This document shows, piece after piece, positions 1 to 31,593 of a stretch of DNA of 62,254 nucleotides. A program made the position numbers and the translations under genes. Source of the DNA: Scedosporium boydii (Eukaryota > Ascomycota > Sordariomycetes > Microascales > Microascaceae); contig NJFT01000233.1 in assembly GCA_002221725.1 (NCBI GenBank), positions 1-62,254 on the forward strand, written 5' to 3'. Under the pieces are notes generated by a model. That model saw nothing but the letters and a program-made list of their open reading frames with translations. It did not search any database and was not told where the DNA came from. The stretch's first letter is position 1. Each line of letters opens with the position of its first letter.

Positions 1-1494
1 AAAAAAAGGACACTTGCTCGTAGATATTATGGTTTGGCACACGCCGAGCTCCCCAGTATTCGGATCGCCAACAAGCCCAAAATTCATATCCTTTCGCTGC
101 TGTTCGGCAGACTCGTGAAGCTCACGACGGATCTCGTTCGCCGCGTGCCACAACGGCAAGATTGAGTGATGTTGGTCGTCGTAGATTTTAGAAGAGCACT
201 TGGACATTATGCGCGATAGCATCACGAGTGAGTTGAGAAACCGATCGTGTGGTGGTACCGGCACGTTGGACCCTGGTTCTGGAATCGACCGTGGTCGGCC
301 AAGGCTGAAACACGTCCACCTAGCAAAAGAAGCACGTTAATATTAAGGAAGAGGTGGAGGATCCCAAAGACCCTGAGGCCGCCCTGGATGTAAGACGTAC
401 GTCTCCCAAAAATATAAGCTCCATAATGTCTTTCGCCCACGTAATACTTCTTCTTGATTCTGCCCACGACGCCCATTTACGTCCTTGTGCAAACCCGCGG
501 CGACGGCCTTCCTCACCGCCGTTCCCGTATGGAGAAATCCAGCGTTGGGTCGCGCCCTTTCAGCCTGGAAATGGGCGTGCACACACACAAGAATAATGTT
601 AGCTAGCTAGTCTTGATACTTTCTCCTCGGCAGCAAACTTATCATCATTAAAGCAATCTGGACAGCCTGGACATTCACCAGCTCATCCAGCTTCGCCGCG
701 CCGTTCTTCGCTTTTTGAAACAGAAACTCGGCAACGTGGTCCTCGTCCAGTACAGACGCTCCAAGCGCCATGGCCAGCATGACGATGATGTTGTCTGCGG
801 AATCGTACGAGAATATCGCGGGCGATCTGTGCAGCTTGTCGAGCTGCCGTCGGTACTCGGACTGGGATATGACGGGGAGGACATGCCAATACGTCGAAAG
901 ATACGTCTCCACCAGACGTTGAGACAACGCGCGATCCAAGAACATGGCTGAGTAGTCGTTCGGTGTCGGTAACGAGGTCTTGCTATCGATCCAGTCCCCG
1001 AAGAAGAGGCGCCGATTGCTAAAGCGGTCCAAGCCCGGCCCGACCTCCTCGACATCCTTCTGCGAGCCCGGCGCCACAGCAGTGCCTTCCATTTGATGAT
1101 ATATCGAATGCAGCATCGAGAAATTAGATGACGGGCCATAGTATAGCTCGAGGAAGCACGACGGCGACGTGCGATGCGTAGCCGCCACGCTATGGATGTG
1201 AAGACTCGGACTTGCGGTGTCCTCTATCTGCTCCTCGGCCGGCCGAACCCCCGCATCCGCAAACGCCGCGCCAGCCCCAGCCGCAGCTGCCGTCGGCCGA
1301 CTATCGTCCGACGAAGCGACGCTCGAACCCGGCGCCAGGGGAATCCTTTTCGCCCTGTTTCGGGCCTTGGCCCTGTAGACGCAGACGAGGCGGCGCACCT
1401 GACACCGCTGGCACGGGTCCTCGCCGTTGCATCTTATCTTCTTGACGCGGCACTCTTGGCAGGCCTTGGACACGCGCCATTTTGTTGAATCCAT
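1..1494 (-). CDS. Zn(II)2Cys6 transcription factor, 3' end cut by the window edge
   Basis: Exons read as 620-1494, 401-556 and 1-319, the last running off the window. The N-terminus has a complete binuclear zinc cluster of spacing CX2CX6CX5CX2CX6C at about residues 12-38, followed by a basic linker, so it should bind DNA in the nucleus. The fungal-specific transcription factor middle domain starts near residue 190. It continues through exon 2 (GTAVRKAVAAGLHKD) and across the second intron (WTCFSLGRP) to the edge (ANEIRRELHE). Exon 1 alone ends in a stop a few codons past its donor, so an unspliced reading would give a falsely truncated protein. The first intron (557-619) uses a CTGAAAG acceptor; the more obvious upstream CAG breaks the frame. 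It lies at the left edge of the metabolic cluster, but the AAAGTCCG motif found in the other cluster promoters was not seen in its own upstream region. Confidence 0.85.
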
Positions 1495-2526: not shown

Positions 2527-4352
2527 CTAGTACATGTATCGCCAAGTGATGGCTCTATCGCCCAAAAATGAGAGTTGCTCCTCAGTAAAGTCAGCCCTGC
2601 GCCCATTCCTCAGGGCTTGCGCCCTCTTCCTGTTTATCAGGTAATAAGCCGCCACTAGGCCGGATGCAGTGATGATACCGGCGACGACAAAGCCCATCGC
2701 CAGGGAATGGCCTAGGATGTATCGGGGCATATCCTGAGCACGGTAGAAATTGGAGGCCATGGCACCCCCTAGGTTGCCCACCGAAATTTGAAGGGCCATG
2801 CCGGTGCTCCGCTTGTAGCTGCCACTGAGGTTGTTGGCGAGCCAGGTAATGGTGCCGGGCGTGGCAGCGTACACGCCGATCACAGCCAGGACCAGACCTG
2901 AGTAGACGACTCTGCGGTTCGCGGAACCGAGACACCTGGCAGTCGGAGATTGGTTAGCAGGCAGGACATGACTATAGGGCCACGTATGGTGCGTACATTG
3001 CTAAGCCTACCACTGTCAAAGTTAGACACCCGATGATAAACGGACTTCGAAGTTTGGCTCGATCGGAAAAGTAAGCGACTGCAATCGAGGCGAACGAGGC
3101 TGCCACGTAGATGGGGATCGTCATGAGCTGGGAGGTCGAACGTTCGTAGCCCATATCCTTGATAATAGTGGGCAGCGATAAGGTGATGCCGAAAATAGGG
3201 CATACGACCTTGTGCATGACAAAATTATTGGCTGCAAGTCTATGAAGGGTCAAGAGATAATGGCTTTACTTACCGCCCAGTAACATATGATCATAGCCCA
3301 GGCCTGGAAGGCTTTGAAGGCTTGCCGGACATATTCCCACTTGAACTCTTGAGCTTCTTCTACGCTGGGCCCAACATCTTCGTTCAATGCATCGTCTCGC
3401 GTGCCACCTTGGTATCGAAGGCGGGACATAACATACTCTCTCTCGTCCTGGGTCAGGAAGCTCGCGGTTTCCGGGAAGTCAAATAGGGTCCAGAACGAGA
3501 AAATGGCTACGATGACAGTCGCCAGACCCTCGAGGATGAAAATCCAACGCCAGCCGGCTAGACCGCCCACCCCATCCATCTTGGCAATAGCAAAGGCGAG
3601 CAGGCCGCTAAATGCCCCTGCGGCGGATGCAGCAGAAAAGAAGAGGGCCTGCCGGATTTGTAATTCATGACGGCAATACCACATGGTAAGGTAGAACTAC
3701 CCGAGCGAGACGATTAACGAGACAAGAGCCAAGCCGAAAACATGTACAGAATTTTTATGAATGCGCACTTACAGCAACGCCTGGGTATAGCCCAGCCTCG
3801 GCCACGCCGAGAAAGATTCGAGAAATAATCAGGCCGTGATAGTTTTGCACAATGCCTGTCAGGGTCATGACCACGCCCCAGGCAACCATAATAGTCGGCA
3901 ACCATCTGCTCGGCCGAATTTTCTTGAGTACCAGGTTGCTAGGGACCTCAAAGGCCGAATAGGTAAAAAAGAAGACGGTCAAGCACCAATTGTACTGGTT
4001 GGGTGTGAGGTCCAAGTCCTCTGCAAGGCCCTCGATCTTGGCATTTCCGATACTTCCGCCTTTCCCAGCATGTCAGGCCGTGCCAAACGAGACGAGAGCG
4101 CTAGTTGGATAACTCACGGTCTAAGTAAGCGAGGAGATAGAGAAGCGTCAACATGGGGATGATATGTAGGTCCATCTTGCGCAAAATCTTCTTCTCGTTG
4201 AGGTGGTCGGATGACCATAAGGTGACGTTTTTGGCCTCGGAGCTCGTCTGGGCGCCGGCAGCCCCCATTTTCTCTATCGCATGTTCTGTTTCGTCGACAT
4301 GGATCTTGACGGAGCCAGAGGACCGGGTGTTCTGCTCTAAGTCGATCGCCAT
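2527..4352 (-). CDS. MFS transporter, anion:cation symporter (Dal5/allantoate permease) family
   Basis: Five exons: 4118-4352, 3773-4059, 3274-3696, 2997-3208 and 2527-2935, giving about 521 residues with 12 predicted membrane spans in two halves. Family landmarks are visible: LLYLLAYLDRGSIGNAKIEG at the end of span 1 (formed only after splicing), RIFLGVAEAGLYPG, GWRWIFILEGL, and WLANNLSGSYKR in the second half. Members of this family import carboxylates and related organic anions such as allantoate, nicotinate or pantothenate by proton symport at the plasma membrane; the substrate here is unknown. An in-frame TTG lies three codons upstream, but the first ATG is at 4352. The third intron acceptor was chosen as CACAAG because it restores both frame and family sequence. 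It is divergent to the alpha/beta hydrolase, with a shared promoter, and probably feeds substrate to the cluster. Confidence 0.88.
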
Positions 4353-5836
4353 GTTAAACAAAGTATGTGTATGTGGATGTCGAGTAGAATCACTAATGCT
4401 AAAGTAAACGCATCCCTCGTGGAGGAAGAAGAGACAGAACAGACGCAGTCATCGTGGAAGTCGTGATATCCGATCAATCATATAGTACAAACCATTGGAG
4501 TGATGTTCGATTGCCCAGCGACGCTAAAAGAAACCGACAATCAAAGTCCGGAGGGAGAGTTAGTCCAATTTGCCGTCATGCAAGACAGTGGGGCTGAACG
4601 GCCTCGCGTCGCCCTCGCATGCGGGGAAGCTGGGGTCGAGGGTGGAGGTCAAGGTTCGATCTAAGGTTAGATCCGATGTACTTAGCATCCCCTTTTCTCC
4701 ACACCATCTTATACATATTCAAGCATTGTCCAGAAATCTAGTTTTGTACTGTGATGGTGGAAAAGGCGACGGCAGTGAGAAAGGTGCAGTTCTCCTTTGG
4801 GACCGCAAAGACGAGGGCGGAAGAACATTATTCCTCGCCATGGACCAGGGCGTAGTTGTTTCTTTTCTTTCCTATCATCTCGGAGAGAGGACAACAAGTT
4901 CAACATCATCATTAAGTCAGGTCTTTTTAATTCAATTTACTTCTTTTAAACCAGTTCTCACAGATCATCTTTCATGATGACCCCTTAAGGAGCTTTACTG
5001 CTTGTCTTGTGTGCCCAAGTGTCCCGTATTAGACACTTACATGATTCTTCACCTCTCCCTATTCAGAGGTCTCCTTTTTTTGCATGTTCTACTGTTATTT
5101 CCGTTGATCAACGGATCCGACATCTGTCCATTCCTGCACGGGGACCCGTGCAGCAGATTCTTGCAGGAATTGTCACAGACCATTGATCACACCCATTTCC
5201 TTTTTCATCCATGTGATGAGCGGGTAGGCTGCACTACTCCGTTACAGCAACCCCCCATATTTCCCCTCCTAATTTGCCTGTAAGGTGGCCTACCAGGTAC
5301 TTGGTCCTTTATACTACACCAAAAAATAGCCCAGCCTCCACTCAGAAAAAGCTTTTTACTTTAAAATCAGAATTTACCCTCTCTAATAACAAATTGTAAT
5401 TATACAAGTCCGAAATCAATTCCCGGAAAACCCAGCTATTCTTCGTTCTAAAAATATAGCGTAGTTGAAACTATGTACCTACGAAAAGTACTATGTAAAG
5501 TGACATTGATGTTTGGGTGAGAATGAACGTTTTGGTGGTGGGCACCCAGTCTAGGGGCAACAACACTCTCTCGGTGTCTGGTGTCCGGGGGCACGGGTAA
5601 GTCAGATTCGTCAGAGTTTGATTAATCTTACTAGAGTACAACCTCGGGTTACAGAGCAAGGCCACTGAAAGAGCACCATCTAAATCTTCAAGTGGATTTC
5701 CGAAATATCCCAACCAGTACATCAATATTGATTCTCTCCTTAACTAATACTACTAACCATATCCCAGTTCTGCGCAAGCCGGGCGGCAAAAAAATCGCAG
5801 CGTGCTTCCCCGGACAGTTGAGAATCGCACTATAAT
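4353..5836. other. divergent promoter region (MFS transporter / hydrolase)
   Basis: About 1.5 kb separates the two start codons. It contains an AT-rich and pyrimidine-rich centre and the octamer described separately. A 135-codon open frame on the plus strand near 4570-4977 has no recognisable features and is not called. Confidence 0.6.
4543..4550. promoter_or_regulatory. AAAGTCCG motif in transporter/hydrolase divergent promoter
   Basis: The octamer lies 191 bp upstream of the MFS start codon, in the sequence CAAAGTCCGG. The same octamer occurs in the other three divergent promoters of the cluster. A one-mismatch copy, CAAGTCCG, occurs at 5405-5412 on the hydrolase side. Binding by a cluster Zn2Cys6 factor is inferred. 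Confidence 0.5.
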
Positions 5837-6986
5837 ATGGACTTCTCAAAATACGGCTATGCGAGTGCGCAGTGGCGCGAGTTCCTCACCACAAATCCTA
5901 ACGCCGCGCAGGATGGCTTCAGTGGAAACAATCCATCGAAAGCCATCCAGCTGCAGGAGACGACAAATCAGACAAGGGCCACGGCCGGCGCGGAGTTGCT
6001 CGCAAAGTCAGGCTTGGACAGCAAGGTCGACATCTCCACAACGTTCGTGCCGTCAAGACATGGGCATCATCAGATCGCCATCCGACGTTATACGCCTAAA
6101 GCCCGCCAGGGGGATGTTGAGGAGCGAGTGCTCGTGTATTTCCACGGCGGAGGCTTCTTGTTCGGCTCCGAGACGACGGAAGATTTTCTGTGCGCCGAGA
6201 TTTCAATGGGTGTGGGTATCACTGTCTTGAGTGTGATTTACAGCCATACACCGCAGTACGTGCATCCTACGGCCCACGACGATGCCCTAGACGTGTACGA
6301 CCACATTCTGAAAACCGCCTCTGCCTACGGAGTCTCATCAGGCGCTGGACTTGCTGTGCTTGGTATTTCAGCTGGAGCAAGTCTCGCCGCGGAATTCGTC
6401 CAACACGACTTGACGCTTTCCAAGACAAGCCCGCCGCACAAGCGGTTGGTTGCTGGGGCCGTTCTTTCAATGCCCTGGCTTATACACGTCGAGAATGTCC
6501 CCCTGCACCTGTTCAAGTCACCCGAAAAGGCTTCCAGCATTCAGTGCCGCGACGCGCCCGTCATTCCATGGCCGCGGCTTAAACTGTTCAGCGATCTACT
6601 GGCTGCCGAGGATATCACAGATCCGAAGCTCAACGCAGCCCTCCGCCCCGATTCTGAGCTGCAAGGATGGCCAAAGACAGGATTCGTGATAGCGGGCATG
6701 GACCCTTTGAGAGATGACGGGTTGATCTTTGCCAAAAGGCTCCAAGCGTCTGGGTAAGCAACGCAATTTCCCCCTGGATATTGGTCTGTAACTGACAAAT
6801 AGGCAACCGCACAGGACGCCAACAAGTGTTCATGTGTTTGCGGGTGTTCCTCACGGATTTCGACGCTGGCCAGACTTGCCATGCGCAAATCAGTCCGATG
6901 AGAAAACAATGGACCTTATCCGTTGGGTACTAGAGCTAGACGAAGCACAGGGGGTTTCAATGCCAGGATGGCACGAGTATGCATAG
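5837..6986 (+). CDS. alpha/beta hydrolase, HSL-like (Abhydrolase_3) esterase/lactonase
   Basis: Exons 5837-6753 and 6803-6986 give 366 residues, usual for this family. The oxyanion-hole motif HGGG is at residues 103-106, the nucleophile elbow GISAG at 176-180 (Ser178), the catalytic Asp in GMDPLRD at about 289, and the catalytic His in GVPHGF at about 323. The His is encoded only in the second exon, so the intron is needed for a complete triad. No signal peptide, so it is probably cytosolic. The family hydrolyses carboxylic esters and lactones. In this neighbourhood the natural guess is that it opens the ester or lactone made by the Baeyer-Villiger monooxygenase, but that is inference. It is divergent to the MFS gene and convergent, 45 bp apart, with the CMD-like gene. 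Confidence 0.9.
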
Positions 6987-7031
6987 ACATGTGGGATTAA
7001 ATTGTATCTAGGTCTATATATTTGGATTCTC

Positions 7032-7819
7032 TTAGTTCTTTTCTATAGGAAGCGTGGGAATGGGAACTGGCTCGAATCTGAACGTGACTCCAAGGATCTC
7101 CGCCAGCCCAAGAAGTAACTTCTGAAGCTCTAGAAGTTCGTCCCTACTGGCACCGTTCAGCAACATGCCAATCATGTGGTTTCGTATCTGCCCTGGACTG
7201 TCCATCCCATATAGTGCCGACACCATGGCGTACGAGGAGGTCATGTCATCGAGGATCGCGTCATATGAGAAGAGTCTCCCGTATACAATATCTGATGCGG
7301 TAATCAGCCAAAAAAAAAAAAATTTTCCTCTTTACGTCCTCAATGATAAAACTTTATACCTTTGACAAGGAAGAGATAGTCAGGGCTGGCTCTCTCAGTG
7401 TCACGCACGTCGAAGAGTGGATTGCGATCATAGATCCTGCCGAAAAACTCGTTGCCCCTCTGGATGGCAGTTTCCTCCGTTTCTAGCGATCTCGGCGAGC
7501 TCTTCAACCTCAAGTTCTCGGGCGTACAGTGGGAAAAGATGCGGATAGCGTTTCCTGTTCTCGCCGCCCCGGCAATGCCGAGAGATTTTGTGATGCCCTC
7601 GCGAATTCGGTGAACAGCCTCGAAGCGGTCATTGTGAGAGAGCTGACACAGGAGACTGGCGTCGAGGTGCGAGTACACCTGGGGGATAACATCGGCGTAA
7701 TTGAGGGACGAAAGATTGACGATGACACACATGTACCATCGAATCTTGAGATCTCTATCTCTTATGGCAAGGACCGGAGCATAAAAAGAGTCCGGGAGTA
7801 TGGGAGTTGGCGGTGGCAT
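7032..7819 (-). CDS. carboxymuconolactone decarboxylase-like (AhpD-like fold) protein
   Basis: Exons 7360-7819 and 7032-7291 give about 239 residues. The frame is open upstream to a TTG, but the first ATG is at 7819. The pattern AREGITKSLGIAGAARTGNA-like in the first half, and SPGQIRNHMIGMLLNGASRD after the splice, match the helical repeats of CMD/AhpD-like fungal proteins. The CxxC of true AhpD peroxidases is absent, so a thiol peroxidase role is unlikely. Relatives act on lactones or remain uncharacterised. The 68-nt intron has a long poly-T tract on the sense strand. Divergent to the ABM-like gene over a 427-bp shared promoter, convergent with the hydrolase. Confidence 0.8.
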
Positions 7820-8040
7820 TGTTGCTGAGATCGCGTCAAAAAGTTGAGTCAAAAAAAATGATGATAGAAGTAATACTCCCAGTGAACCTGATCAGGTCGA
7901 AAGCTCAAGTTGGCTGCTGCAACGACATCATATGTCCACGACTAATCCGCGGGATGATCTACCACGGAATGCAAGTCGGGTAAACGAAGCCGAAGACGGG
8001 GAATTGTGAGTTGGTGGGGAGTGAGGGGCTGTTGGAGTTG

Positions 8041-8048
8041 AAAGTCCG
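8041..8048. promoter_or_regulatory. AAAGTCCG motif in CMD-like/ABM divergent promoter
   Basis: This copy of the octamer lies near the middle of the 427-bp region between the two divergent start codons (7819 and 8247). It is identical to the copies at 4543 and 15539 and to the complement of the copies at 11054 and 15531. Confidence 0.5.
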
Positions 8049-8246
8049 TGAACAGGGTTAGATCCGGTCATCCGTGACGCACTACGGGCGCTTGGGGTAT
8101 TTCAACGAAGTGGAGCTGTGGAGCTACTTTTGGCGAGTTTGTTCATTATTTGTACATCCCAGACGCCGGGGGGGGAGAGGAAAACCCAGAGATACCACTG
8201 CACCCCAGCTGAATCCTCGGCCATAGAGATCACCCGTTTCGTGGTC

Positions 8247-9059
8247 ATGTTTGTCCTTGTTCCGTTGTGCGACGTCCCGTCTCGGGAGAAGAGCGATCGG
8301 GTAAGTATATCCAGCAGCGGCCAGCATTCATGTCTGCGGACTAAAAGTCTTTCGCTCGACAGCTTCTCGAATTAATTGCGCGAATCGCACCTTTTACGGC
8401 CCGGAGTGAACCCGAATGTCGTGCGTACGCCTGGTTTCGAAACGCTGAGGACACCGACGCGGTGCCCGGTCACTGGGTCCGCGGCATAGAAGTGTTGGTT
8501 GTTCCGTTCATTAAATGGTCGAAAGTGAACTACAATAGAGCTGATGATGGGTAAATGCACCAGGTATGAAACCCATGAGGCTAACCGGGAGACGCACCGC
8601 GCCGGCGAGGCGTACCGGGAATTCCGCGCTGCTGTTGCCGCAGAAGGCTTGCTCAATGGATATCCCGATATGCGATTCTGGTGTCCCACTGGGATGGGGT
8701 TCTTGACGCGTGCCCCAATCAACATGATGGAGGGCCGTGAAGCGACGAAGAAACAGTATATTGTAGTGCAGGATTTGTCTCCCAAGCAAGGCGCAAAGAG
8801 CAAGGTGCTGGACACCCTCGGGTCCGTGGTCAACTCCGTCGAGAGCGTTCCCAGTGTTGGCAGCTTTTGGGTGCTCGAACGGGAAAACAAGGAGGATGGT
8901 GATGATGTGATAGTGTTTGCAAGATTCGACTGCAAGAGCAGCTACGAAGCGTTTATGGCTACGGACGCCGCGCAGACTTGGAAAATTGTCGGTGATCTCT
9001 GTCAGGCGGCACTGACGACGACGTGGACCGAGGGTGGGATTGGATTCTTAGGAAGGTAG
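8247..9059 (+). CDS. antibiotic-biosynthesis-monooxygenase-like (ABM, dimeric alpha-beta barrel) protein
   Basis: Proposed exons are 8247-8300, 8363-8524 and 8580-9059, about 231 residues. The first exon (MFVLVPLCDVPSREKSDR) joins through a GTAAGT..CGACAG intron to LLELIARIAPFTARSEPECR, the typical first strand and helix of an ABM domain. The long third exon carries a second, ABM-like half ending TTTWTEGGIGFLGR. The second intron is the weak point: the donor at 8525 is GTGAAC, and the acceptor may be 8579 or a later AG near 8612 that sits at a better distance from a CTAACC branch. ABM proteins are small cofactor-free oxygenases or decarbonylases on quinoid or polyketide-like compounds, but many fungal ones are untested. 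Cytosolic by lack of a signal peptide. Confidence 0.68.
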
Positions 9060-9473
9060 ATGACCGATGATACCATGTTCTCATTGAGGGTTGGGGTTGT
9101 AGTCGATTGAAAATAGATCTCGAGTGTCAAGGTGCTTCGGGATAGCATTCTCACGTAGTTCGTTCAAGTAGTCCGCATAGGAAACTGGAAAACCCACATG
9201 CTCTATATTGTCAGTATTTTGCGCATGCGAATGAATATTACAGAAACCGTTACTATGTGACGAGATAAGGAAGAAGCCATACACTCATTCACTGTTTGTG
9301 GGACATTGGTCTCGAAGTTCAGAGTGCGTTTCTCAACTAGAGCGGAATCGAATCCCACGTCGCGCCGGTTACTAATAACGTAGAGTAACATTCGGTTACA
9401 GTTTTAATGGTCTTATGTTTAAAAAAAAAGTAGGGAGTGATTCATTGAAGTTGCCGGCAACTCATTGTGCGCT
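9060..9473. other. intergenic between convergent genes
   Basis: About 410 bp between the 3' ends of the ABM-like and cyclase genes. I see only a short poly-A tract near 9420 and no gene. Confidence 0.6.
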
Positions 9474-10751
9474 TTACATGATGGCGGTAGCGTTTGGCGG
9501 CGACGCTACGGCCCCTGTGTAGTTCAATGGAGACGAGGTGAAGAAAAAGGACCATCTCTTGTTCTTCTCGCATAAAGATGCCAGCCCTTCTAAGTCAAAG
9601 AGCTCCCCAATGGGCGTACCCCAGCCTGAGAGCACAATGGGGTGGAGGAACCAGTCGTGGTCCGCCGGTGCTAGTCGATCACAGAAGTAAGTAAACAGAA
9701 AATCACCCTGTCAACTGGAGGAAGAACTCACGCAGCATTTCGAACCCAGGACAGTCAGCCGCGAGGGCCGCGAACTGCTTGCCCCATAACCATTCCACCG
9801 TCTCTTTCCCTTGTGACAAGCCGACCCATTTGCCTTCAGCCGCCAGCTTGCGTCTCGCCTCGTCTGCGGCCTTGTACGCGGAGACGTAGCCTGTCCTTAT
9901 GAAGAGGACGTCGCCGGTATTAAAGGTGACGCCTTGCTCCTTGGCGATGACCTCAATATCTGCCACGGTGATGGGATGGCCGGAGAATGCCTCATAGGAG
10001 AGAGCTTGTCGCTTAGCATATGAGGCGTAGTCGATGAGAACGCCACGGCCCGCAAGATTGCGGGTCGTCCATGGCTGCAAACTATTGTAATCGGTGCGAG
10101 GGGCAGAATGAATCTGTTCCTGGGTCGTTCTAACCACGAGAAGAGTCAGCAGGTCTTTCATATGACCGAGAAAATTGTATCAGGTAGGTGTAGGTATTCT
10201 CAACCCATTGTAGAATTTCTTGTCTTTTTGATATGCAAAGTGGCGAAGGCTATCCCATTGCGAGCTGCCCTGCGTGTTGAACTTGATCTTTCAACAGAGG
10301 TCCTGTCAGTTATCATCTCTGGAACACTGGCAACAAAGATCTTACTACGTCATCATTGATGACCCGGGGATTTTTGTCGATAACTTTCTGTTCGAAGCCA
10401 ACTCGGCCGAGGAGAGGCGGGTTGATGAGATCCAAGGGAAGGCTACCGGCGCCGCATGCTTCCAGTCAGCAAAGATGACCCATGCAAAAGACCTTCCCAC
10501 GTCTGGCTTGCTCTATCGCCCATGTTGTTATATCGGCTGGCAACCTACTTAAGCCCGACTCGCTCGCCGGTTTTCACTTCCTCCTTGATGGTTTTAAGGA
10601 CAACCTCATCCGTCAAATAGTTTAGGCTGCCCAATGCGCTATCAGGCCCGCTGCCCCAGAGTCCCCAGGCCGAGTATGCGGGGTCGCCCTCTCTCAAGGG
10701 CAGCTTGTCAATGGTGGGGATGGGATTCGCTGGGGGCGCCATGGGCAACAT
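9474..10751 (-). CDS. cyclase-family metal-dependent hydrolase (PF04199, kynurenine-formamidase/isatin-hydrolase-like)
   Basis: Five exons: 10549-10751, 10346-10442, 10205-10287, 9732-10129 and 9474-9670, giving 325 residues. After splicing the order is GERVGLNLPLDL, a NDDVIKFNTQGSSQWDSLRH core, GRGVLIDY, GDVLFIRTGY and, in the last exon, LSGWGTPIGELFDLE. This is the usual fungal cyclase-family layout. Bacterial members have an HxGTHxDxP metal motif; here the equivalent stretch is SSQWDSLRH, the fungal variant. The family opens cyclic amides, lactones or N-formyl groups using Mn or Zn. The third intron has a weak GTTGAG donor but both flanking frames fit. ATG is at 10751, with a second ATG three codons later. 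Divergent to the EthD-like gene. Confidence 0.85.
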
Positions 10752-11053
10752 TCAACTCGGCTCCTGTGATGGGTATGGTATTCTTGAATGGGCTGGTATG
10801 TAACTGTGGCAGCGAGAGGATGCACGATTCGGGTTTGATGGTCACACTCCTGGATATAGAAGAAGGAAGCAGAAGAATAAGAAGAAGAAGGAGGTCCGTA
10901 TTCGAGACTGTTCGATCGCACTGGTTATTTGTTCGGGGCCTGCTTGCCGAGGGGCACCTTGCCTGGAGAGTACTCCATTCCTAATAAGTGTCTAGTTAGT
11001 TTCCATCACCCCCTCACATTCCGCATTTTAATGTACGTCCCCGCACGACTTTC

Positions 11054-11080
11054 CGGACTTTACGTCGGAATTCAAAGTCC
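11054..11080. promoter_or_regulatory. CGGACTTT with inverted AAAGTCC in cyclase/EthD divergent promoter
   Basis: CGGACTTT lies at 11054-11061 and the inverted half AAAGTCC at 11074-11080, so two half-sites face each other with 12 nt between the seven-base arms. It sits between the divergent starts at 10751 and 11406. Confidence 0.5.
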
Positions 11081-11405
11081 ATGGCACTAAGTACCAGGCT
11101 GCGTTTGGGGCTTTTGGATGAAAAACCATAAGACTCGATGGCTCAAGCGTTGCAGTTGGGTGCGCAGTCCTGAATGACTGCTTGCCGCTCTCCTTCAAGA
11201 CCTTAATCTGCGGTTACTTCGTAGTCTTAATATTAAGGCGCTGGACAACCCACCCCCTCTCCTCATCTTTCCTCCTTTCTTCTTTGTGATTGATAAATAT
11301 TTTTGCAAATATCTTAAGCTGCAATTCTTCTATATCGAGGCAGAGACCATCTAATACACGTTCAACTTCCCACCCAACGCTGCAATCACTCCAGCACTTG
11401 TGACA

Positions 11406-12065
11406 ATGGCCATCCCCGGAATCATCATGCGCATGGCTCAGCCTCACGACCCGCAAGCCAAGCTCCCCCAATCTATCCTGGCACCTCCGGCGCTGTGCCC
11501 CAACGTGGAAATGTTTTATATCTTTGTTGCCCAGGATGACCTGGCCCCGCGATACAACACTACCTACTTCCTCAGCGACATTCGCCCCGTGCTGGACTCG
11601 TCGGCCTACTACGACAATGATGTCAAGGCGACCGCGGACCATCTCGCGTCGTTGGCATGGGAGGTATGCGCCTTCATGCACGGCCGCGACACCATCGAGG
11701 CCAAGGAGCTCTCATCGCAGCCACACCTCCTACCCAAACCACCAGCCGTGGGCTCGACAATGGTCAGCAACGGTGGCACGCCGGGGCCTGGCTGGGAACA
11801 GGATTACAACGACTGGTACAGCCTCGAGCACAGTGCCCTGCTGAGCTTGGTGCCCGGCTGGAACAACTGTCGTCGCTATCGCCACGTCAAGACGCACGGC
11901 GAAACAGACACAGCGTCGTACTACGGCTGGAACTATTACGACGCGGAGAATGGTCTTGGCGGGCCTGAGTGGCAGGCGAGCATGACGGCTTGGACAGAAA
12001 AGGTCCGGGGAAATGCCAGTAAGCCGAATCTCCGCCGCGTGTGGAAGGTCGTCGAAACCAGCTAG
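11406..12065 (+). CDS. EthD-like dimeric alpha-beta barrel protein
   Basis: A single exon of 219 residues. The frame is open two codons upstream to a GTG; the first ATG (11406) follows a pyrimidine-rich leader. The C-terminal half has the EthD/REDY-like signature (YNDWYSLEHSALLSLVPGW followed by CRRYRHV) and ends with a Trp-rich strand. Such proteins act as small cofactor-free tailoring enzymes (decarboxylation, dehydration or cyclisation of aromatic or polyketide-like substrates) or as accessory proteins to oxygenases. The N-terminal half (residues 1-110) is less clear and may be a second barrel repeat. Cytosolic by lack of a signal peptide. Convergent with the regulator gene, 97 bp apart. 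Confidence 0.75.
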   Translation: MAIPGIIMRMAQPHDPQAKLPQSILAPPALCPNVEMFYIFVAQDDLAPRYNTTYFLSDIRPVLDSSAYYDNDVKATADHLASLAWEVCAFMHGRDTIEAKELSSQPHLLPKPPAVGSTMVSNGGTPGPGWEQDYNDWYSLEHSALLSLVPGWNNCRRYRHVKTHGETDTASYYGWNYYDAENGLGGPEWQASMTAWTEKVRGNASKPNLRRVWKVVETS

Positions 12066-12162
12066 GCATATTTGAAGGTAGCTTACAAGAACGATTATTA
12101 TGGTTGCAACCTTGTCACGTATCTGCTTTGCAATGCTTTGTTTCCCGCTGTCTCTAACCAAA

Positions 12163-14824
12163 CTACATCGATGAGGTGAACAGGCCGTAGAGCGTATCTT
12201 GCCAGATTTGCTGTTCCTGCTCATCGAGATATGTCATGAGGCCGGCGGTAGAGGTGTCATATGAGTAGTAGTCAGAGCCCACCACAGACATGCGATTACC
12301 ACCAGGAGCAGAGTGATTCAACATGAAGCCATCGTCATTGGGGATGTGCACCACGTCTGACGTGGCGTCGCCGACGGAGGGGTGCGCCGGCAACGGGAAC
12401 TCAAAGAAGCTCTTGTCCAGGCCGCCCTGCACATATTTGTCACGGCCGCCGTCGTCGTCCGACGCCAAGGCCGCTATACCGCTCTGCTTGATGCTGATAT
12501 CATACTCGCGAACCATTTCCTTGAGGATAGCCAGCGGCTTCTTCATGCCAAAATTGCAGCCTCTCTGCATGTCGCTCAGGCACGTCCAGAAAAAGGATAT
12601 ATGCTCCATAAACCGGCCCCTGTGATTTCGTTCCTGGCGCAGGACAACGCTTACGGCAGAGTAGGTGGCATAACACAGCAGAAACGGCGCGCAGCGCAGC
12701 GTGAATGTGTCTCGGAACGACCGGAGCAGCTTTTCAATCATGAGTGCGCTGTGAAGACAGGCCTCCTCACTACGAGTCGTCACGCCGCTGTCTGAATGGT
12801 GGAATAGGTGCCCGTCTTCTAAAAAGGCCCGATGTAGTAAGATATTGAGGGCATGGAAGGTGGTGCTATGGAACGTAACCTGTTAGAGTTGGCGAAGCAG
12901 CTACGGATATGGGGAGCGCGCATCGGGGATGGTCAACGTACTGAGGTGTGATCTTATGAGGAGGGGGTATAATGGGTCCTTCCGGGTCGAAACGGAGGTG
13001 GCTCGGTAGCGAGTCACTCCAGTGCTGGAGGTTATGCTCAATGTCTGTCAGTTCTCTCTGCATATCCTGTGCGTGGCCTTTGATGGCGTCAATGCCGTAC
13101 ATCTTGGTAATCCTTGTGGAAATCTGCAAAAGACGGGCAACCGCACCAAAGGTCGACACGGCGTGGGCTGGCTGCGGGGCATATGGCGGTGGGCAGTATT
13201 GCGGCGTTTGATCATCAACGTACGGCTCCCATTTTGCCAGCTCCTCAAACGTGTCCAGAAAACAGAACGGCACCCTGGCCTCGACCGGAGCAAGCATGCA
13301 CGGCCGGCCGAGGTAGAGAGACTGTGTAGCGTCCGTCGCAAATGCTCCCCAGTACAGTCTCTTACGCATCTCCTGCTCGAGGTCCTGGCTAAGGGCGCTT
13401 CTTGCGCTAGAGTGCATCATCGCCTGCGCCTGGCAATCGGGCCCAGGCGTGAGATGACAACCTAAATCGATGACCATCCGGTACGCGAGTCCCGATAAGT
13501 TCCATCCGGCACTTGGACGGCCGTGGGACACCAGAGAGGCACTCATGAGGAGTAGTGCCACCGCAGACGGGATACTCGGCTGGGCGATCTCGCCGCCCAG
13601 TAGCTGACAGAACCGGGCGTAGAAGCGAGAGCCGATACTCTGTGGGTCGTTTGGATCTTCCTGGAGACACGGCCGGTTGCTGTAGAGGGAGCTGGAGTAG
13701 TATATGGCATTCAACAACAGCTTGTTGACCCAGGGGCCCCCACCGCTAGCCAAGCTGTCCATGATGGCCGGGCGATAGGAAATGAGATAGACACAGTGCT
13801 GCATGTTGAAGTGAAGCTCTATCAAGTGCTTTGCCAGGTCAACATCGCACCCGTCCAGGTCAATAGTGATCTGCGGCTGGTTGTACACCCAGGCCTCGCG
13901 TTGGCTCTGGAGCGCCGCGTAACTGATCAGCCGGGCCTTCGAAGCCGCAATCCGAGCTTCGTCCTCCTGCGCCATCCCGGCAACCGCCGTTATCTCCTTA
14001 TGCCTTCCAGAGCGATTGTTCATCGGGCTGGCCAGGCCGTGGACAGACGAAACGCAGCCGTGCTCATGGGATACGCCGGCGACGTGCGCTTCGCCGGGAG
14101 AAAGGCCAGAGAGGCGGTCCTTTCCCTCTCGACTACGATCGCTCACCTCTGACTCGGAGGCTTCTGCCAGCGGCTGTGTTTGTGAGGCGGCCATGATGTC
14201 GGTGGATATGCTACTTGGGGTCAGGCGCTGGCTGGTGTTGTTATTGTCATTATCGACCCTTGTAGTCGGTCCCGGGTCCGGGTAATCCATGGCGCATTTG
14301 TCCATGGTAGTCTCTGCGGGCGAGTCCAGGTGGCGAGACGGTGAGGGAGATGGTACAATGAGGACTCCTTGTTGGAGCATCGTTGCGGTTGTCGTGTGGG
14401 TGATACCTGGTGCCGAGTTCGCCTCATCATCATGGCTCCGGGGCCGCTCGAGTTGGTGTTCAACCTGTCCTCGCGCCGACAAAGATTCGCCACTTCCAGC
14501 GACGGCGCTCGAGATCCACTCTTCCGTGCTCGTGTCCATGGGAGCAAGCCCAGCGGCCTTCATGCGGTCTAGCATAGCCTCGATGGTAGTCTCGAGCCTC
14601 CTGACGCGCGCTCTCGACGGCCGCGGCTCCTTTCGCGCATCCTGGGGGTATACACACTCGAGCTCATCAACGATGCACTCGGTGCACCTGGGTTGGCTCC
14701 CGGAGCATCTGACCTTTTTGAGGCGGCAGGATGCGCAGGTTTTGCAAGTTTTGATCGCCGAAGTCGTCTTTTGGCCTATACTGGTCTGGCTTGTTTTTCT
14801 ACCAGCTGCCGCCATTCTTGCCAT
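12163..14824 (-). CDS. Zn(II)2Cys6 transcription factor with fungal-specific middle domain
   Basis: Exons 12938-14824 and 12163-12879 give about 867 residues. The zinc cluster CASCRLKKVRC..CTEC..C has spacing CX2CX6CX6CX2CX6C near residues 28-56. It is followed by a basic segment and a short coiled-coil-like helix (RRLETTIEAMLDRM). A low-complexity acidic/Ser region spans about 100-290, then a Fungal_trans domain (LIELHFNMQHC, MRKRLYWGAFATD, LYLGRP). The intron donor was set at GTTGAC, which joins ITPQY to VTFHSTTFHALNILLHR in frame. An in-frame TTG lies five codons upstream of the first ATG. It is divergent to the monooxygenase gene, and their shared promoter holds the palindromic CGG-N10-CCG site. 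It is therefore the best candidate for the cluster activator, possibly autoregulated. Confidence 0.88.
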
Positions 14825-15757
14825 TTTACTATGCTGCAACGGCGCTGTAGAGGTTCGCGATTGTAGCCGAGATGGAATTGCTCTGTGGTGGGTGGGTGAG
14901 CGTGCCTCGAGGCAGGTTGATCACGGAGGGCGGTATTCGTACATTAGGATCTCTCAGATCAAGGAGATCTGCCCCGAGAAGCCGGGCTGTAAGCGTACAA
15001 GGATTATGCGGGGTAATCAAGCTAGAAATGCAGAGTGCTCTCTAAACAGAGTAGCGTTATAATTTTAGTAATTAATAGAGTTCTACAGAGTTTTTGTCCT
15101 AGTTTTATTCCAAGCCTCTACTAGGGGGGGGGGTCCAAACGCCAGCTGAAGAGACCGTCGTCACCACCCAACATATCCCAGATAAGGTCTTAAATAGGTA
15201 CATCTTCTAACATTTTATATTTGAAAAGACCTCTCAGATACCTATCTTGAGATATTTCAGGTGGTGGATCTGATCTCTCAGGCTAACGTTTAGACCCCTG
15301 GTAGAGGTTTATTAAAGGGAAGAACTTGGTCGCCTCGGTAAATGTCAACGAATTAATAGCACTAGGGTTACCATTTGCAGTCAAACTACCCCAGACAGCT
15401 TATTCGGACACTATGCCGAACTAGCGGGACTCAACATCCGGGGAAGTCTACCATCCCCGCATCTCTGCTGATTTAGGTTACTTCTGAGCAGCCAGCCAGG
15501 GCTACCTCTATTACTACCTCTACCTTCGCCCGGACTTTAAAGTCCGCAACGAGGTAAGTGCACAAGTACCGCTACCCTCTGGTCAACTGCCAATGAAATC
15601 CCCCTTTCGGCGCATGATAACTGGAAAGCAACGGAAATGTTTATGTATGTATATAGGCAGTCAATAATCAATGGGCATTTGTCTCCCAGTCCAATAGCCA
15701 TGCACTTGTCGCTTTGTCAAACTTTGCATTACTCGAACCTGTACCCTTACCTCGATC
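14825..15757. other. divergent promoter region (regulator / BVMO)
   Basis: About 930 bp between the two start codons, with a run of nine G near 15124, TA-rich segments, and the palindromic candidate site described separately. No gene seen. Confidence 0.6.
15531..15546. promoter_or_regulatory. perfect palindrome CGGACTTTAAAGTCCG (CGG-N10-CCG)
   Basis: A 16-bp perfect palindrome 212 bp upstream of the monooxygenase ATG. Zn2Cys6 dimers of the Gal4/Put3 type bind inverted CGG triplets with a fixed gap, and Put3 uses a gap of ten as here. It contains two head-to-head copies of the octamer found in the other three divergent promoters. Regulator identity is inferred from proximity. Confidence 0.6.
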
Positions 15758-17817
15758 ATGGTCCCCGTGACTCTAGAGCAGACCGCCGCAAGAGCAATGG
15801 CCACCGGCCAGCCCGAGATGATCAAAGCTGGGGGCAAGGCTGCCTACCAGAATAACCATCACAACGGTGTTGGTTCCGTCGGCGACGTTGACGACGCAAC
15901 GGCCAAGGCGGCTACTGCCCACCTCGAACAGTTCTACAAAGTCATCGAGAAACCACTCGGCCAGCGACGCCACATCCGCATCGCTTGCTTGGGCGCGGGA
16001 TACTCGGGCCTCATGATGGCCATCGTGTTTAGCCAGCGCCTCCAGGGCAAAAATGCCGAGTTTGTTATTTACGAGCGCAACGAGGACCTGGGTGGGACGT
16101 GGCTAGAAAATAGGTTAGTCTCTATCATTTTTTTCCTCATTCTTTCCCCACGGCCAAATGCCTAGAGCTTCCTCCTGTCTTTACCTTGGTTTGATTTTCG
16201 AAAGCAAGCTCCGTTCTCAACGTCAAGGTATAGGTACCCCGGATGCAAATGCGATATCCCAGCCCATAACTACGCCTTCAGCTTCGCTCCCAAGGCCGAC
16301 TGGCCCAACTACTACGCTACATCCGAGCAGATCCACCAGTACATGCATAGCGTGGCCGACCAGTATGACTGCAACAAGTACATCAACTATAACCACAGCA
16401 TCAAGTCCGCCGTGTGGGACGAAAGTAAGGCCAAATGGCAGGTCACCATTGAAAAGTCACCTCAACGTCTTACATTCGTAGACGAGGTCGATATTTTTAT
16501 CAACGCTGGAGGCGTTCTGAAGTATGTCCCCCCGGCGTACTGTCGATGATTCCTCTCGAAGCTAACTTTGACTGATCTAGCAACTGGAAGTGGCCCAATA
16601 TCCAAGGCCTAGAGACCTTTGAAGGCGCGCTGATGCATTCGGCTCGATGGGATACAGAGTACGACTTCAGCGGAAAGCGAGTAGCCATTATTGGCATCGG
16701 ATCTTCCGCTATCCAAATTGCGCCCCAGCTCGCTAATATCTGCACCTCTCTGGACCTCTTCGTCCGTAGCCAGACGTGGATCTCTCCTGGTCCCGGCATA
16801 AATGAGCCTACTGCCAACGATCCCGAAATGGACTCGGAGTACAACTTTTCGGAAGAGGCGCTCGAGCTGTTCAAAGACCCCCAATTCCTTCGCGATTATC
16901 GCGCAGCCATTATTGATCGTCGCAATGACAACTACAAGCGTTGGATAGCTGATAGTGACGAGCAAGCAGAGGCCGTGAAGCTCTTCCGTGCAACGATGAT
17001 ACAGAGGCTTGGCGACAGCGAAAAAGGTCGTAAGGCCGCCGAATGCCTCTTGCCCTCATTTCCGGTCGGATGTCGAAGGCCTACCCCGGGCCCTGGATTC
17101 CTAGAGGCCTTGACCAGAGACAACGTCGATCTGCGCTGGGATGATATCGGCCAGATCACGCGCAGAGGGATACTCACCAAGTCAGGCGAAAAGGAGTACG
17201 ATGTTATCGTCTGTGCTACCGGCTTTGATACATCCTTCAAACCTTCCTTTCCAATCATCGGTCGCAATAAAGTATCTCTCGCTGACAAGTGGACCGAAGA
17301 GTTGCCAAAAGCGTACTTCAGTCTTACTGTGCCTGATTTCCCGAATTACTTCTGCTTCATTGGTCCGAACAGTGTTATCAACAACGGATCCTTGGTCCTT
17401 GGCATTCAAATGACTGCAGTTTATATATATAGATGGATCGAGAAGATGCAGACGGAATTGCTTCGGTCCGTTGAGGTGCGCCATGAGGCCAATGAAGACT
17501 TCAATCAGCACATACAGGCCTATCTAGAGCGTACGGTGTGGACGCGGAACTGCCGAAGCTGGTATAAGAATGGCACCATTGACGGGCCCGTGACTGCTGT
17601 GTATGGCGGCACCACTTTTCACTTCATGGAGGCTCTCAAACACCCGCGTTGGGAGGACTTTCACATGACCAGAGAGCCTGGGTCGGTGAATCGCTTCAGC
17701 TACTTGGGTAATGGCTTCACGCTCAGCGAGACCAGAGGCGACAGTGTGGGCGTGACGCAGACTATCAACTTTGACGACTTCATGAGCCTGTTTGTTCTGC
17801 CAAATACCTATAGCTAG
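15758..17817 (+). CDS. Baeyer-Villiger flavin monooxygenase (type I)
   Basis: Exons 15758-16113, 16234-16521 and 16581-17817 give 626 residues. The FAD Rossmann motif GAGYSG is at 79-84 and GGTW at 112-115, followed after the first splice by RYPGCKCD. The Baeyer-Villiger fingerprint FxGxxxHxxxWD (FEGALMHSARWD) is at about 228-239, and the NADPH Rossmann motif GIGSSA at about 253-258. These together separate it from ordinary FMOs and N-hydroxylases. Type I enzymes insert an oxygen next to a ketone to give an ester or lactone, using NADPH and O2. The N-terminal extension of about 70 residues is longer than in bacterial cyclohexanone monooxygenases but usual in the larger fungal/steroid-type members. 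No signal peptide. It is probably the key oxidative step of the cluster, with the esterase-like hydrolase downstream in the pathway. Confidence 0.93.
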
Positions 17818-18728: not shown

Positions 18729-20192
18729 TTAGGCGATTCCGTTATAAGCAATTAGATTAGGGGTCTCGTATTTCAACTTCTTGGCTTTATTCTTCGTCCC
18801 GAGCGCCTTGAGTCGATTCGTGAGCGCATCCGGCGTGGTGATATTCTCGGCGATCATGAGATACACCGACAATCCCGTAACGTGCGGCGCGGCCATGGAC
18901 GTTCCGTTGAGCGTTAGAGTATTGGGCCCCGTGGCATTAACCTGCCTCCAGGCGGAGAGAATGTTCACCCCTGGGGCGAGGATGTCGACGGTGCGGCCGT
19001 AGTTGGAGAACCACGCCTCCTCCCAGTTCTCGTCGATGGCGCCGACTGTGATGGCGTTGGGTTGCGAGCCGGGCGAGCTCTGGGATGCGAGGGTGTCGTC
19101 GTTTCCGGCAGCCGCTACGACTGGGATGCCTGCGTCGTAGGCTGTTCGGACTAAGGCATTCAACGCGTAAAGTCTATTGCCACCTAGGAACAGAAAAAGG
19201 ACGTTAGAAGTGAAGCTCCATTTTAGGAGAACAGAGGTGAGGGGCGAGAGGGAAAAACCGCAATTTTCTTTTTTCATCCTTACCGAGAGACATGTTGATA
19301 ACCGACTTGCCCAGCCGACCCTTGTCGACAATATCGCGGATGGCCCACTGCAATCCCTGCAGGACGATAGAGCCATCAGTCTCTTCATTGTCCAGAACCT
19401 TGACAGAAACGAGCGTAGCAGCCTTAGCCACGCCGTACGTCTTGCCACCAATGGTCCCGGCAACGTGAGTGCCGTGACCGGCATTGTCGACAAAGCGAGT
19501 GAACGGCACAAAATTTTGACCCAACTGCGCGCGCCCATCGTTGAATTCCGGGTGCTGGTTGAATAGACCAGTGTCGATGATGTACGCGTAACCTCCCTTT
19601 CCGGCGGAAGAGTCGTAGGTGTAAATCTTGGAACCCGGGGTCCTACTTGAGAGAGTTCCGAGGCCCCATTCTGCTGCCTGCTGCGAGGCGACGGCGGTTA
19701 TCCTGAAGATCTGGTCGGGCTCGACGTATTCGACCTAGGGCGAAAAGATGTTAGGCTACTGGACCATGACAACGGTGATTCTAACGAAAAGTCGTGTATG
19801 CTCGGGGCCGGAGAGGGAGGGGGCTTGAGAGAAAGAGGATTGGAGATTTGATGTCACCTTACCTCTGGGTGGTTCCTGATCTGCTCAATCGTCGCATCGT
19901 CAAACTCTCCTGCGTATGCTCGGAATCTAGCCGCTTTGTACGTTTTCTCCACGCCCTTGAGATTTCGCCCATCAAGACTCCGCTTATGGACATTCTGCAC
20001 CCAAGCTAAGTGGGACGCGGTAGTCGCATCAGTAGTGCCCTCTTTGAGCGTAATGATGTATTTGCCTGGGATGCCGGTCGACTTTTCCGACTTCGACGCG
20101 TTTGGCTCTGACCCCTCCGACTGCACGAACGCCGCGGCAGCAAATGGTACCAGGGAGATAAGGAACACGGTCACCCGTCTAAGGTTGACCAT
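18729..20192 (-). CDS. secreted subtilisin-like serine protease (S8A, proteinase-K type)
   Basis: Exons 19863-20192, 19284-19734 and 18729-19183 give 411 residues. A signal peptide (hydrophobic core VTVFLISLVPFAAAA) is followed by an I9 propeptide inhibitor domain (GKYIITLKEGT..., ending near VEYVEPDQ). The catalytic triad is visible: Asp164 in IIDTG, His197 in HGTHVAG, and Ser356 in GTSMAAP. Ala-Ala-Gly-Asn (VVAAAGN) supplies the oxyanion Asn. Length and order match fungal proteinase-K-like endoproteases that act outside the cell. The third exon begins at GG of the conserved MSLGG segment. The neighbouring genes do not suggest a shared pathway. Confidence 0.93.
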
Positions 20193-29917: not shown

Positions 29918-31593
29918 TTAAATGGCAGCACCACCGCCGCAGGGTCCAACGTGATCATGCGCATAATGTCCATGACCAGCGCCATCCTCCCTCTTCACAA
30001 ACTTCGTCCTCTCCTCGCTCCAGCCCCTCTTCGCCTTGTTCACAGCCGGAAGCGAGTCGAAGCTAAGCGCGTACTTGGCAACGGAGTTAGCGATGCTCTT
30101 CGTGTTGAGTAGATACGCGTCGTGAGCCAAGTTGTTGATATCGTCGCCCTTCTGGTGGTAGTTGACGTCGTAAGCGACGCCGGCCTCGCCGCCGAAGAGC
30201 TTGGCCTCGGCCTCGGTCTTGAGACCCTCGGCACCCGTGAAGAGACCGCCAGAGGGGATGCCATTCTCGATGAAGGCGGCGTAGTCGGATCGGCCGCTGA
30301 ACTCGGTGGGGACGTGGCCGACGCGGTTGTGGTCGTAGAAGTCCTCAAAGTCCTTCTCGATGACGTCGGAGCCGGCGGGGCCGGTGAGGTTGAAGGCATC
30401 GCCGTTGCCGTCGTAGATACCGTAGATGTAGTTGGGGCTAGCGATCTATTTGATAAAGTTAGCTTGGGTTTAATTGAAGAGGGTGGGGAACGAAGAGAAA
30501 GAGGTAGATGTAGCATACCATGTCAAAGTTGAGATATGCCCTAATCTTGGCGAGCTCGGTCGAGGAGGTGTTAAGCTGCTTGATGTAGTAGTACGATCCG
30601 AGCTTGCCGTATTCCTCGGCTCCCCACCAGGCGAAGCGGATGGCGTTCTTGACACCAAACTTGGAGAGAGCAATAGCGACGTTCAAAATGCCAATGGAGC
30701 CGGATCCGTCATCGCTGCGTTTATTGTTAGCGTCTACGACTAATTTCTTCTGTTTGAGCCAAAAAAACTCACTTGACACCAGGGCCAGCGGCGACAGAGT
30801 CAGAGTGACCTCCGAGGACGAGCACGTTGTTGTGGTCACCTCCCTTGGTCTCAGCAATGACGTTAAAGTTGACGCGGTCCTCAACGGTCGCTTCGACCTT
30901 AAAGTCAACCGTCACCTCACCAGCTCCGACCGCAGCAACGAGCGCTTCGCCGTCAGCCTGGCTGACGCCCACGACGGGCGCATACTCGCCGAAGGCGTCG
31001 CCGAGCGTGCCGCTCAACGTGCCCTCGACATTGTTGTACACAATTAGACCCGCCGCGCCAGCTGTCTTAGCGTTGGTGGCCTTCGAACCAAAAGTACAAG
31101 TACCTCGAGAGACAAGAGCAATGTTGCCCTCGACCTCAGCAGGGAAGTCGCTGGCCTCACACCCGAGATTCGTGGCAAGGACGAGCTTCGCGCTCACGGT
31201 TCCAGCGGGGCTGTAGGTCATGATGGTGCTGTTGAGCTCCTTGCCATCGACGGAGATGGTCGCATCTCCGTCGAAGAAGATCTCGTTAAAGGGCTGCTTG
31301 ACGACGTTGTAGTAGTTGAGGGAGTTGAGGGTGTCGTAGATATAGTCGACGGTGGCGTTGTGGCCGCCGCTGCCGAACACGCGGTTGCCTCCGTTGGCAT
31401 CGGCGAAATCCTGGAGCTTCTGCGAGCCGGCAAGAAGGTCCTTGAGCTTGATGTGCTGCTGGAGCTTCTTGGAGCTGACGAGAGGCTTGTTGCACTGGCC
31501 ACCGTGGCCGCCCTTTCCGCCCTTTCCGCCAGCGAGGCCGAGGGCTGGAAGTCCCAGGGCGGCAGTAGCGAGTAAACCGGTGGTGAACCTCAT
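29918..31593 (-). CDS. secreted M28 aminopeptidase with PA domain (aminopeptidase Y / leucine aminopeptidase 2 type)
   Basis: Exons 30773-31593, 30519-30714 and 29918-30445 give 514 residues. The ATG at 31593 precedes a signal peptide (LLATAALGLPALGLA); a TTG four codons upstream is in frame but not needed. A Gly/Lys/His-rich stretch follows, then a PA insertion with ALVSRGTCTFGSKATNA and GAAGLIVYNN. The co-catalytic zinc site is spread over all three exons: His263 in GGHSDSV, Asp275 in NDDGSG (formed at the splice), Glu307/308 in WGAEEYG, Asp338 in NFDM, and a His in NYHQKGDD. It trims N-terminal residues from peptides outside the cell or in the vacuole. A TATATATA lies about 180 bp upstream of the start. 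Confidence 0.93.

Follow-up and report, generated by a model that had tools for sequence, protein, structure and literature searches.

A shared octamer in four divergent promoters of a Scedosporium boydii gene cluster, a candidate half-site of a GAL4-type Zn2Cys6 regulator

The PUT3 operator consists of inverted CGG triplets with a spacing of N10, and the GAL4 operator has a spacing of N11. Factors of the GAL4 type are typically homodimers that recognise inverted CGG triplets (PMC5215518). Two gene clusters with sites in bidirectional promoters are the closest described systems. In the apicidin F cluster of Fusarium fujikuroi, three bidirectional promoters each hold one copy of an 8-bp motif (the Api-box); its mutation cut production ~100-fold, and its conservation between two species was reported (PMC4109984). 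In the terrein cluster of Aspergillus terreus, the Zn2Cys6 activator TerR has sites in bidirectional promoters (PMC12848540, PMC4528345). Here, a comparable arrangement was analysed in Scedosporium boydii: the octamer CGGACTTT is present in four consecutive divergent promoters of a gene cluster on contig NJFT01000233.1 (assembly GCA_002221725.1). The window is this entire contig (C233, 62,254 nucleotides) and all positions refer to it unless another contig is named; the genome comprises 42.9 Mb in 442 contigs.

As with the Api-box and its regulator Apf2, an 8-bp motif is enriched in the promoters of a cluster, including bidirectional ones, and is attributed to an in-cluster regulator. The differences are that Apf2 is of the bANK type and not a Zn2Cys6 protein, that the Api-box has another motif (5'-TGACGTGA-3'; PMC4109984), that a second cluster (on contig C187) carries the motif in S. 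boydii, and that the S. boydii case is known from sequence alone. Like the terrein cluster, the locus encodes a GAL4-type Zn2Cys6 protein and has its sites in bidirectional promoters; the TerR sites are direct CGG repeats (TCGGHHWYHCGG), whereas the clearest sites here are inverted, and the polyketide synthase of the terrein cluster has no counterpart among the proteins scanned here. Inverted CGG triplets are shared with the PUT3 and GAL4 operators, and a perfect palindrome at 15531 has the N10 spacing of PUT3. Unlike the PUT3 case, spacing varies here, N10 is not repeated on C187, and the binding domain of the in-cluster regulator (12163-14824), compared with solved structures, is nearer to GAL4 (E 8.9e-08) than to PUT3 (E 4.7e-03), with PPR1 at E 2.9e-05. 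The locus is the same kind of thing as the Api-box and TerR systems with another regulator-site pair, and the second cluster is its less usual part. The motif was not found in the part of the matching literature that was covered, whether the search was for the octamer, for the palindrome, for N10 spacing or for clusters of a similar kind.

Both strands of the window were scanned for exact matches to CGGACTTT and five were obtained, at 4543 (-), 8041 (-), 11054 (+), 15531 (+) and 15539 (-). The last two form one perfect 16-bp palindrome, CGGACTTTAAAGTCCG (15531..15546, CGG-N10-CCG, 212 bp from the start codon of a Baeyer-Villiger monooxygenase, BVMO), which leaves four independent octamer positions. 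The original prediction had reported these matches and an inverted AAAGTCC 12 nt from the 11054 octamer (AAAGTCCA at 11074), and had noticed no exact copies elsewhere in the window; the scan bore out each of these points. The gene models likewise agree with four consecutive divergent pairs, with at least one octamer in each promoter, as follows: MFS transporter/hydrolase (4353..5836, 1484 bp, ATGs at 4352 (-) and 5837 (+)), with the octamer at 4543..4550 (-), 191 bp before the MFS ATG; CMD-like/ABM (7820..8543, 724 bp); cyclase/'EthD' (10743..11405, 663 bp), with an exact match at 11054..11061 (+); and regulator/BVMO (14825..15757, 933 bp).

The number of matches is unusual to a limited degree: in dinucleotide shuffles of the window (n=100, both strands counted) the mean was 2.22 octamers and at least five were reached in 2/100. 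The octamer is common, with 1155 copies in the genome (~1.7 per 62 kb; 1022 for the reversed control word), and at one mismatch or fewer the window holds 53 matches against 52.6 expected, which is chance density. The evidence lies in the placement of the octamer and not in its rarity. AAAGTCCG is the sole octamer common to all four promoters, has no copies in the rest of the window, and starts with CGG, as a Zn2Cys6-type half-site does. Any octamer was shared by 2.0% of promoter shuffles (n=400) and one with at least 4 G/C by 0.5%; for quartets of real non-coding DNA, drawn from sampled loci of the same genome (n=1500), the corresponding values were 3.9% and 1.2%, and an octamer with a terminal CGG was shared by 0.07%. 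The initial choice of this cluster is left uncorrected in all of these values. Elsewhere, eight loci on contig 1 (the first among the matches listed) were inspected, and the octamer was inside a frame of at least 150 aa at two and outside at six, too few for a general non-coding preference. The placement of the octamer in the window is real; it is probably functional and is ordinary in kind. Two octamers abutting in direct orientation (CGGACTTTCGGACTTT) were also seen at C2:402122-402137.

A second line of evidence comes from the spacing of CGG triplets. CGG-Nk-CCG dyads were counted for k = 0-29 across the four window promoters, and only k = 10 was present in all of them: CGGTGTCTGGTGTCCG at 5572..5587 (hydrolase ATG 250 bp downstream), CGGGTAAACGAAGCCG at 7977..7992 (158 bp from the CMD-like ATG), CGGGGCCTGCTTGCCG at 10934..10949 (192 bp from the cyclase ATG), CGGGACTCAACATCCG at 15425..15440 (BVMO ATG 318 bp downstream) and the palindrome at 15531. 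Other spacings had at most two copies each. N10 was present in all four promoters in 0/1000 shuffles, in 0.03% of 20000 randomisations with the numbers of CGG and CCG fixed, and in 0.07% of 1500 non-coding quartets; for any one spacing of 0-24 the respective values were 0.3%, 0.9% and 1.1%. After removal of the palindrome a dyad was still found in every window promoter, a result matched by 5/20000 randomisations. When the palindrome was extended to a 16-mer search, the window had three places at three mismatches or fewer, all in divergent promoters: 15531 (0 mismatches), TGGAGTTGAAAGTCCG at 8033..8048 (3 mismatches; the octamer AAAGTCCG at 8041-8048 with a degenerate left half) and CGGAATTCAAAGTCCA at 11066..11081 (3 mismatches; midpoint 324 and 325 bp from the cyclase and 'EthD' ATGs). 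Palindromic 16-mer seeds reached a common score of 37, equalled in 1/1000 shuffles. Weaker relatives are CGGACTAAAAGTCTTT at 8337..8352, with degenerate inverted half-sites one base tighter than N10 (ABM ATG 192 bp downstream), and the near-octamer CGGACTTG at 5405..5412 (-), 425 bp from the hydrolase ATG.

Across the genome, the original prediction had envisaged a scan for CGG-N10-CCG with the octamer core; the perfect 16-mer was found once, at 15531, and a genome-wide regulon based on the palindrome was rejected on that ground. A pattern built from three cluster sites, YGGANTTNAAAGTCCR, matched exactly those three only (circular by construction) and gave 32 matches at one mismatch against 52 for its reversed control. 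Of the 106 genome-wide places of the 16-mer at three mismatches or fewer, 50 were listed, and two of those outside the window were looked at in detail: by sequence reading, C5:399593 is downstream of a coding stretch resembling a KH-domain gene, and C434:4814 is within a retroelement-like coding stretch. Separately, CGGACTTTCAAAGTCC at C62:87849-87864 was read as lying within an apparent early intron of another Zn2Cys6 gene, and the window contains two more perfect 16-bp palindromes, TCCGTTGATCAACGGA at 5100-5115 (MFS/hydrolase promoter) and GCACAATCGATTGTGC at 48348-48363, with ~1 expected by chance. The N10 excess may be genuine for the window cluster, but the evidence favours the octamer over the dyad, which was given less weight because the octamer-bearing promoters of C187 do not repeat N10.

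The octamer is not limited to the promoters of the window cluster: it is also found at the promoters of a cluster on C187 (22001-52000). This contig was chosen from three lists (relatives of the regulator, relatives of the BVMO, and inverted CGGACTT pairs, of which there are 8 places genome-wide), and the reading covered 50 kb (12001-62000) with a subset of the genes modelled. The BVMO and MFS transporter of C187 match those of the window (E 4.9e-74 and 2.9e-70, respectively); other genes were assigned by Pfam to cytochrome P450, a DAO-family oxidoreductase, a cytochrome b5/FMN dehydrogenase, PhyH and a second MFS transporter. The remaining six window proteins had no C187 match at E 0.001 or better, so the C187 cluster is a relative in kind and not a copy. 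Four octamers are present in the 50 kb, at 27073, 38396, 46457 and 50570, and the distances from octamer to start codon are 196 bp (MFS), 245 bp (BVMO), 248 bp (second MFS) and 387 bp (PhyH); in the window, the octamer is 191 bp before the MFS start and 212 bp before the BVMO start. The C187 BVMO octamer also has a divergent gene on its other side, the FMN dehydrogenase, 470 bp away. Two of the sites are inverted repeats, TTCGGACTT-N4-AAGTCCGAA at 50560 and TTCGG-N5-CCGAA at 38396, with CGG spacings of N12 and N5. In seven 400-bp upstream windows of C187, three octamers beyond the selecting one were found against 0.075 expected (P 6.7e-05). Relatives of the BVMO gave 84 matching pieces genome-wide, the window's own included, and at the 11 other loci examined (5 loci and 6 1-kb upstream stretches) the octamer was found at none.

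We consider it probable that a Zn2Cys6 regulator of the GAL4 type uses CGGACTTT as its half-site, with variable dyad spacing, and that this covers both clusters; the protein encoded at 12163-14824 is the most likely candidate. A Zn2Cys6 operator is the best explanation because four features coincide: the CGG half-site, the perfect CGG-N10-CCG dyad, the GAL4-type regulator encoded in the cluster, and the recurrence on C187. The regulator has the CX2CX6CX6CX2CX6C signature, is encoded beside the sites (with further Zn2Cys6 genes also near) and adjoins the best of them, the 15531 palindrome. The original prediction of a Zn2Cys6 operator is retained in this sense, and two of its details are revised: 'local regulon' looks too narrow, because the octamer also marks C187 promoters, and a fixed CGG-N10-CCG operator with the octamer as its core looks too simple. 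It applies to the 15531 palindrome, but in the other three window promoters the octamer stands outside any perfect N10 dyad, and the spacings on C187 differ.

According to this half-site reading, the regulator would occupy the octamer as a dimer wherever another half-site stands opposite (the 15531 palindrome being the best case) and would perhaps bind singly at other octamers. The sites, ~160-390 bp before start codons, would allow one set per two-way promoter to co-activate both flanking genes when substrate is present. The inducing substrate might be an aryl or cyclic ketone imported by the transporter. The C187 BVMO/transporter cluster has the same word, so that both clusters may be under a single regulator or under a pair of related ones.

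Several observations weigh against the half-site reading. For the dyads, when quartets come from all DNA, with coding regions and thus more G/C, N10 is shared by 0.27% of them and any spacing by 6.6%, and the everted arrangement CCG-N10-CGG has four copies, in two window promoters. The octamer and a perfect N10 dyad coincide at 15531 only, the other dyads lacking the octamer; the partner half of the 4543 octamer is poor (3/8); and the start codon of the regulator itself has its nearest site 601 bp away. When the requirement for a palindrome was dropped, shared 16-mers were weakly unusual, the best score of 38 being reached in 4/150 shuffles and 37 in 62/150. On C187, octamer-bearing promoters had no N10 dyad between genes, and the lone N10 less than 1 kb from the BVMO start codon is inside the neighbouring gene. 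The number of octamers in the 50 kb, four against 1.35 expected, is weak evidence (P 0.048, or P 0.15 for the three other than the selecting one), and the reversed control word has three copies in the same 50 kb. The upstream-window test is partly post hoc, its 400-bp limit and gene list having been fixed after the sites were seen, and C187 was selected partly via its inverted site at 50560. Finally, the C187 and window regulators are distant (E 2.2e-09, 44% over 32 binding-domain residues and 27% over 186 elsewhere), and several Zn2Cys6 genes compete as candidate binder.

Given how distant the C187 regulator is, these data are compatible both with a single regulator for the two clusters and with two regulators that have a similar half-site. 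The first of these can be taken further: the C233 and C187 clusters, which both include genes for a BVMO, a transporter and a Zn2Cys6 protein, would be switched on together by this regulator through CGGACTTT half-sites with flexible pairing (inverted N10, N12, N5, or single), and each would contribute a part of the same breakdown pathway. We put this forward tentatively and regard it as rather doubtful.

Among the alternatives to the 12163-14824 protein, the one that survives best keeps the octamer as a true Zn2Cys6 site and assigns it to another factor: the small protein encoded at 607-1494, either of the Zn2Cys6-type genes of C187, or an unlinked regulator of both clusters. A second Zn2Cys6 gene does lie at the edge of the window cluster (607-1494), C187 encodes a Zn2Cys6/Fungal_trans regulator and, by sequence reading, another Zn2Cys6 gene at ~30134, and the presence of the octamer in both clusters would be explained equally well by a regulator located outside either. 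A regulator with many targets should, however, leave many sites, whereas the perfect palindrome was found once and the 16-mer, at three mismatches or fewer, is less frequent genome-wide than its reversed control (106 places, and 177 for the control); the large regulator at 12163-14824, moreover, is the one that adjoins the best site. We judge assignment to another factor to be unlikely, though not markedly so.

Coincidence would mean that a common octamer fell into four adjacent promoters by chance, and that the C187 sites and the N10 dyads are chance matches gathered by looking. The 2-4% frequency with which any octamer is shared, the abundance of the word in the genome and the occurrence of octamer and dyad together at one site only are in keeping with it, as is the history of the case, which was picked from much sequence by an initial reading and followed by a partly post hoc comparison. 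The rarity of a shared CGG-ended octamer (0.0007 of real quartets) and of N10 in all four promoters (0.0003) argues against it, and so do the C187 octamers, all four of which are 390 bp or less from a start codon, with the excess in the seven 400-bp windows given above. We regard coincidence as improbable.

The idea that a dispersed repeat or the remnant of a transposon carried the motif into several promoters is dismissed as extremely improbable: a 62-bp stretch of the regulator/BVMO promoter (15250-15311), perhaps a repeat remnant, does have two further genome copies, 82-90% identical (C86:3281-3341, 90%; C319:12281-12342, 82%), but the remainder of the 15250-15757 query, palindrome included, had no other genome match, on which ground a repeat origin of the palindrome was rejected, and the octamer flanks differ from site to site.

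If CGGACTTT is the half-site of the in-cluster regulator, it would give a handle on two uncharacterised clusters, with a candidate switch, a gene membership and sites worth mutating, and the common word would tie the clusters together as parts of one response; the general view of how such clusters work would be unchanged.

The genes of the window cluster were assigned as follows. The small Zn2Cys6 protein (607..1494, minus strand, 295 aa) matches PF00172 (E 5.5e-09), has no match to Fungal_trans (middle homology domain) and is the second candidate regulator. The MFS transporter (2527..4352, minus strand, 512 aa, 5 exons) matches PF07690 (E 2.3e-35) and is nearest to organic-anion carriers, although TIGR00893 and HpaX, the NCBIfam models that fit it best, score under their cut-offs. 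The esterase-like alpha/beta hydrolase (5837..6986, plus strand, 366 aa, 2 exons) matches PF07859 (E 6.3e-37). The CMD-like protein (7032..7819, minus strand, 239 aa, 2 exons) was named from a phmmer match to the gamma-carboxymuconolactone decarboxylase 2af7 (E 6.6e-06), and had no family match in Pfam and NCBIfam scans. The ABM-domain protein (8544..9059, plus strand, 171 aa) and the putative cyclase family protein (9474..10742, minus strand, 322 aa, 5 exons) match PF03992 (E 2.6e-05) and PF04199 (E 3.7e-14), respectively.

For the protein encoded at 11406..12065 (plus strand, 219 aa), the earlier 'EthD' label could not be confirmed: repeated family searches (Pfam and NCBIfam included) gave no match, the genome has one distant relative (36% over 84 aa), and the predicted structure was unusable (mean pLDDT 31.2). 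The GAL4-type regulator (12163..14824, minus strand, 861 aa, 2 exons) matches PF00172 (E 8.5e-08) and PF04082 (E 5.4e-18). The BVMO (15758..17817, plus strand, 626 aa, 3 exons) matches PF00743 (E 2e-17) and the phenylacetone monooxygenase 1w4x (E 1.9e-52).

Because a 1w4x-like BVMO, an esterase-like hydrolase, cyclase-family, ABM and CMD-like proteins and a transporter occur together, the cluster may plausibly serve to take up a ketone or an aromatic compound and to break it down oxidatively, as far as gene families indicate. No polyketide synthase- or non-ribosomal peptide synthetase-like core enzyme was seen among the nine cluster proteins or ten of the longer downstream frames, which were scanned. 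Downstream of the cluster, the frames at 18732-19697, 30772-31623, 35169-36485 and 42690-43697 have family matches to subtilase, PA/M28 peptidase, GH114 and alkaline phosphatase, respectively, and are unlike the upstream metabolic cluster.

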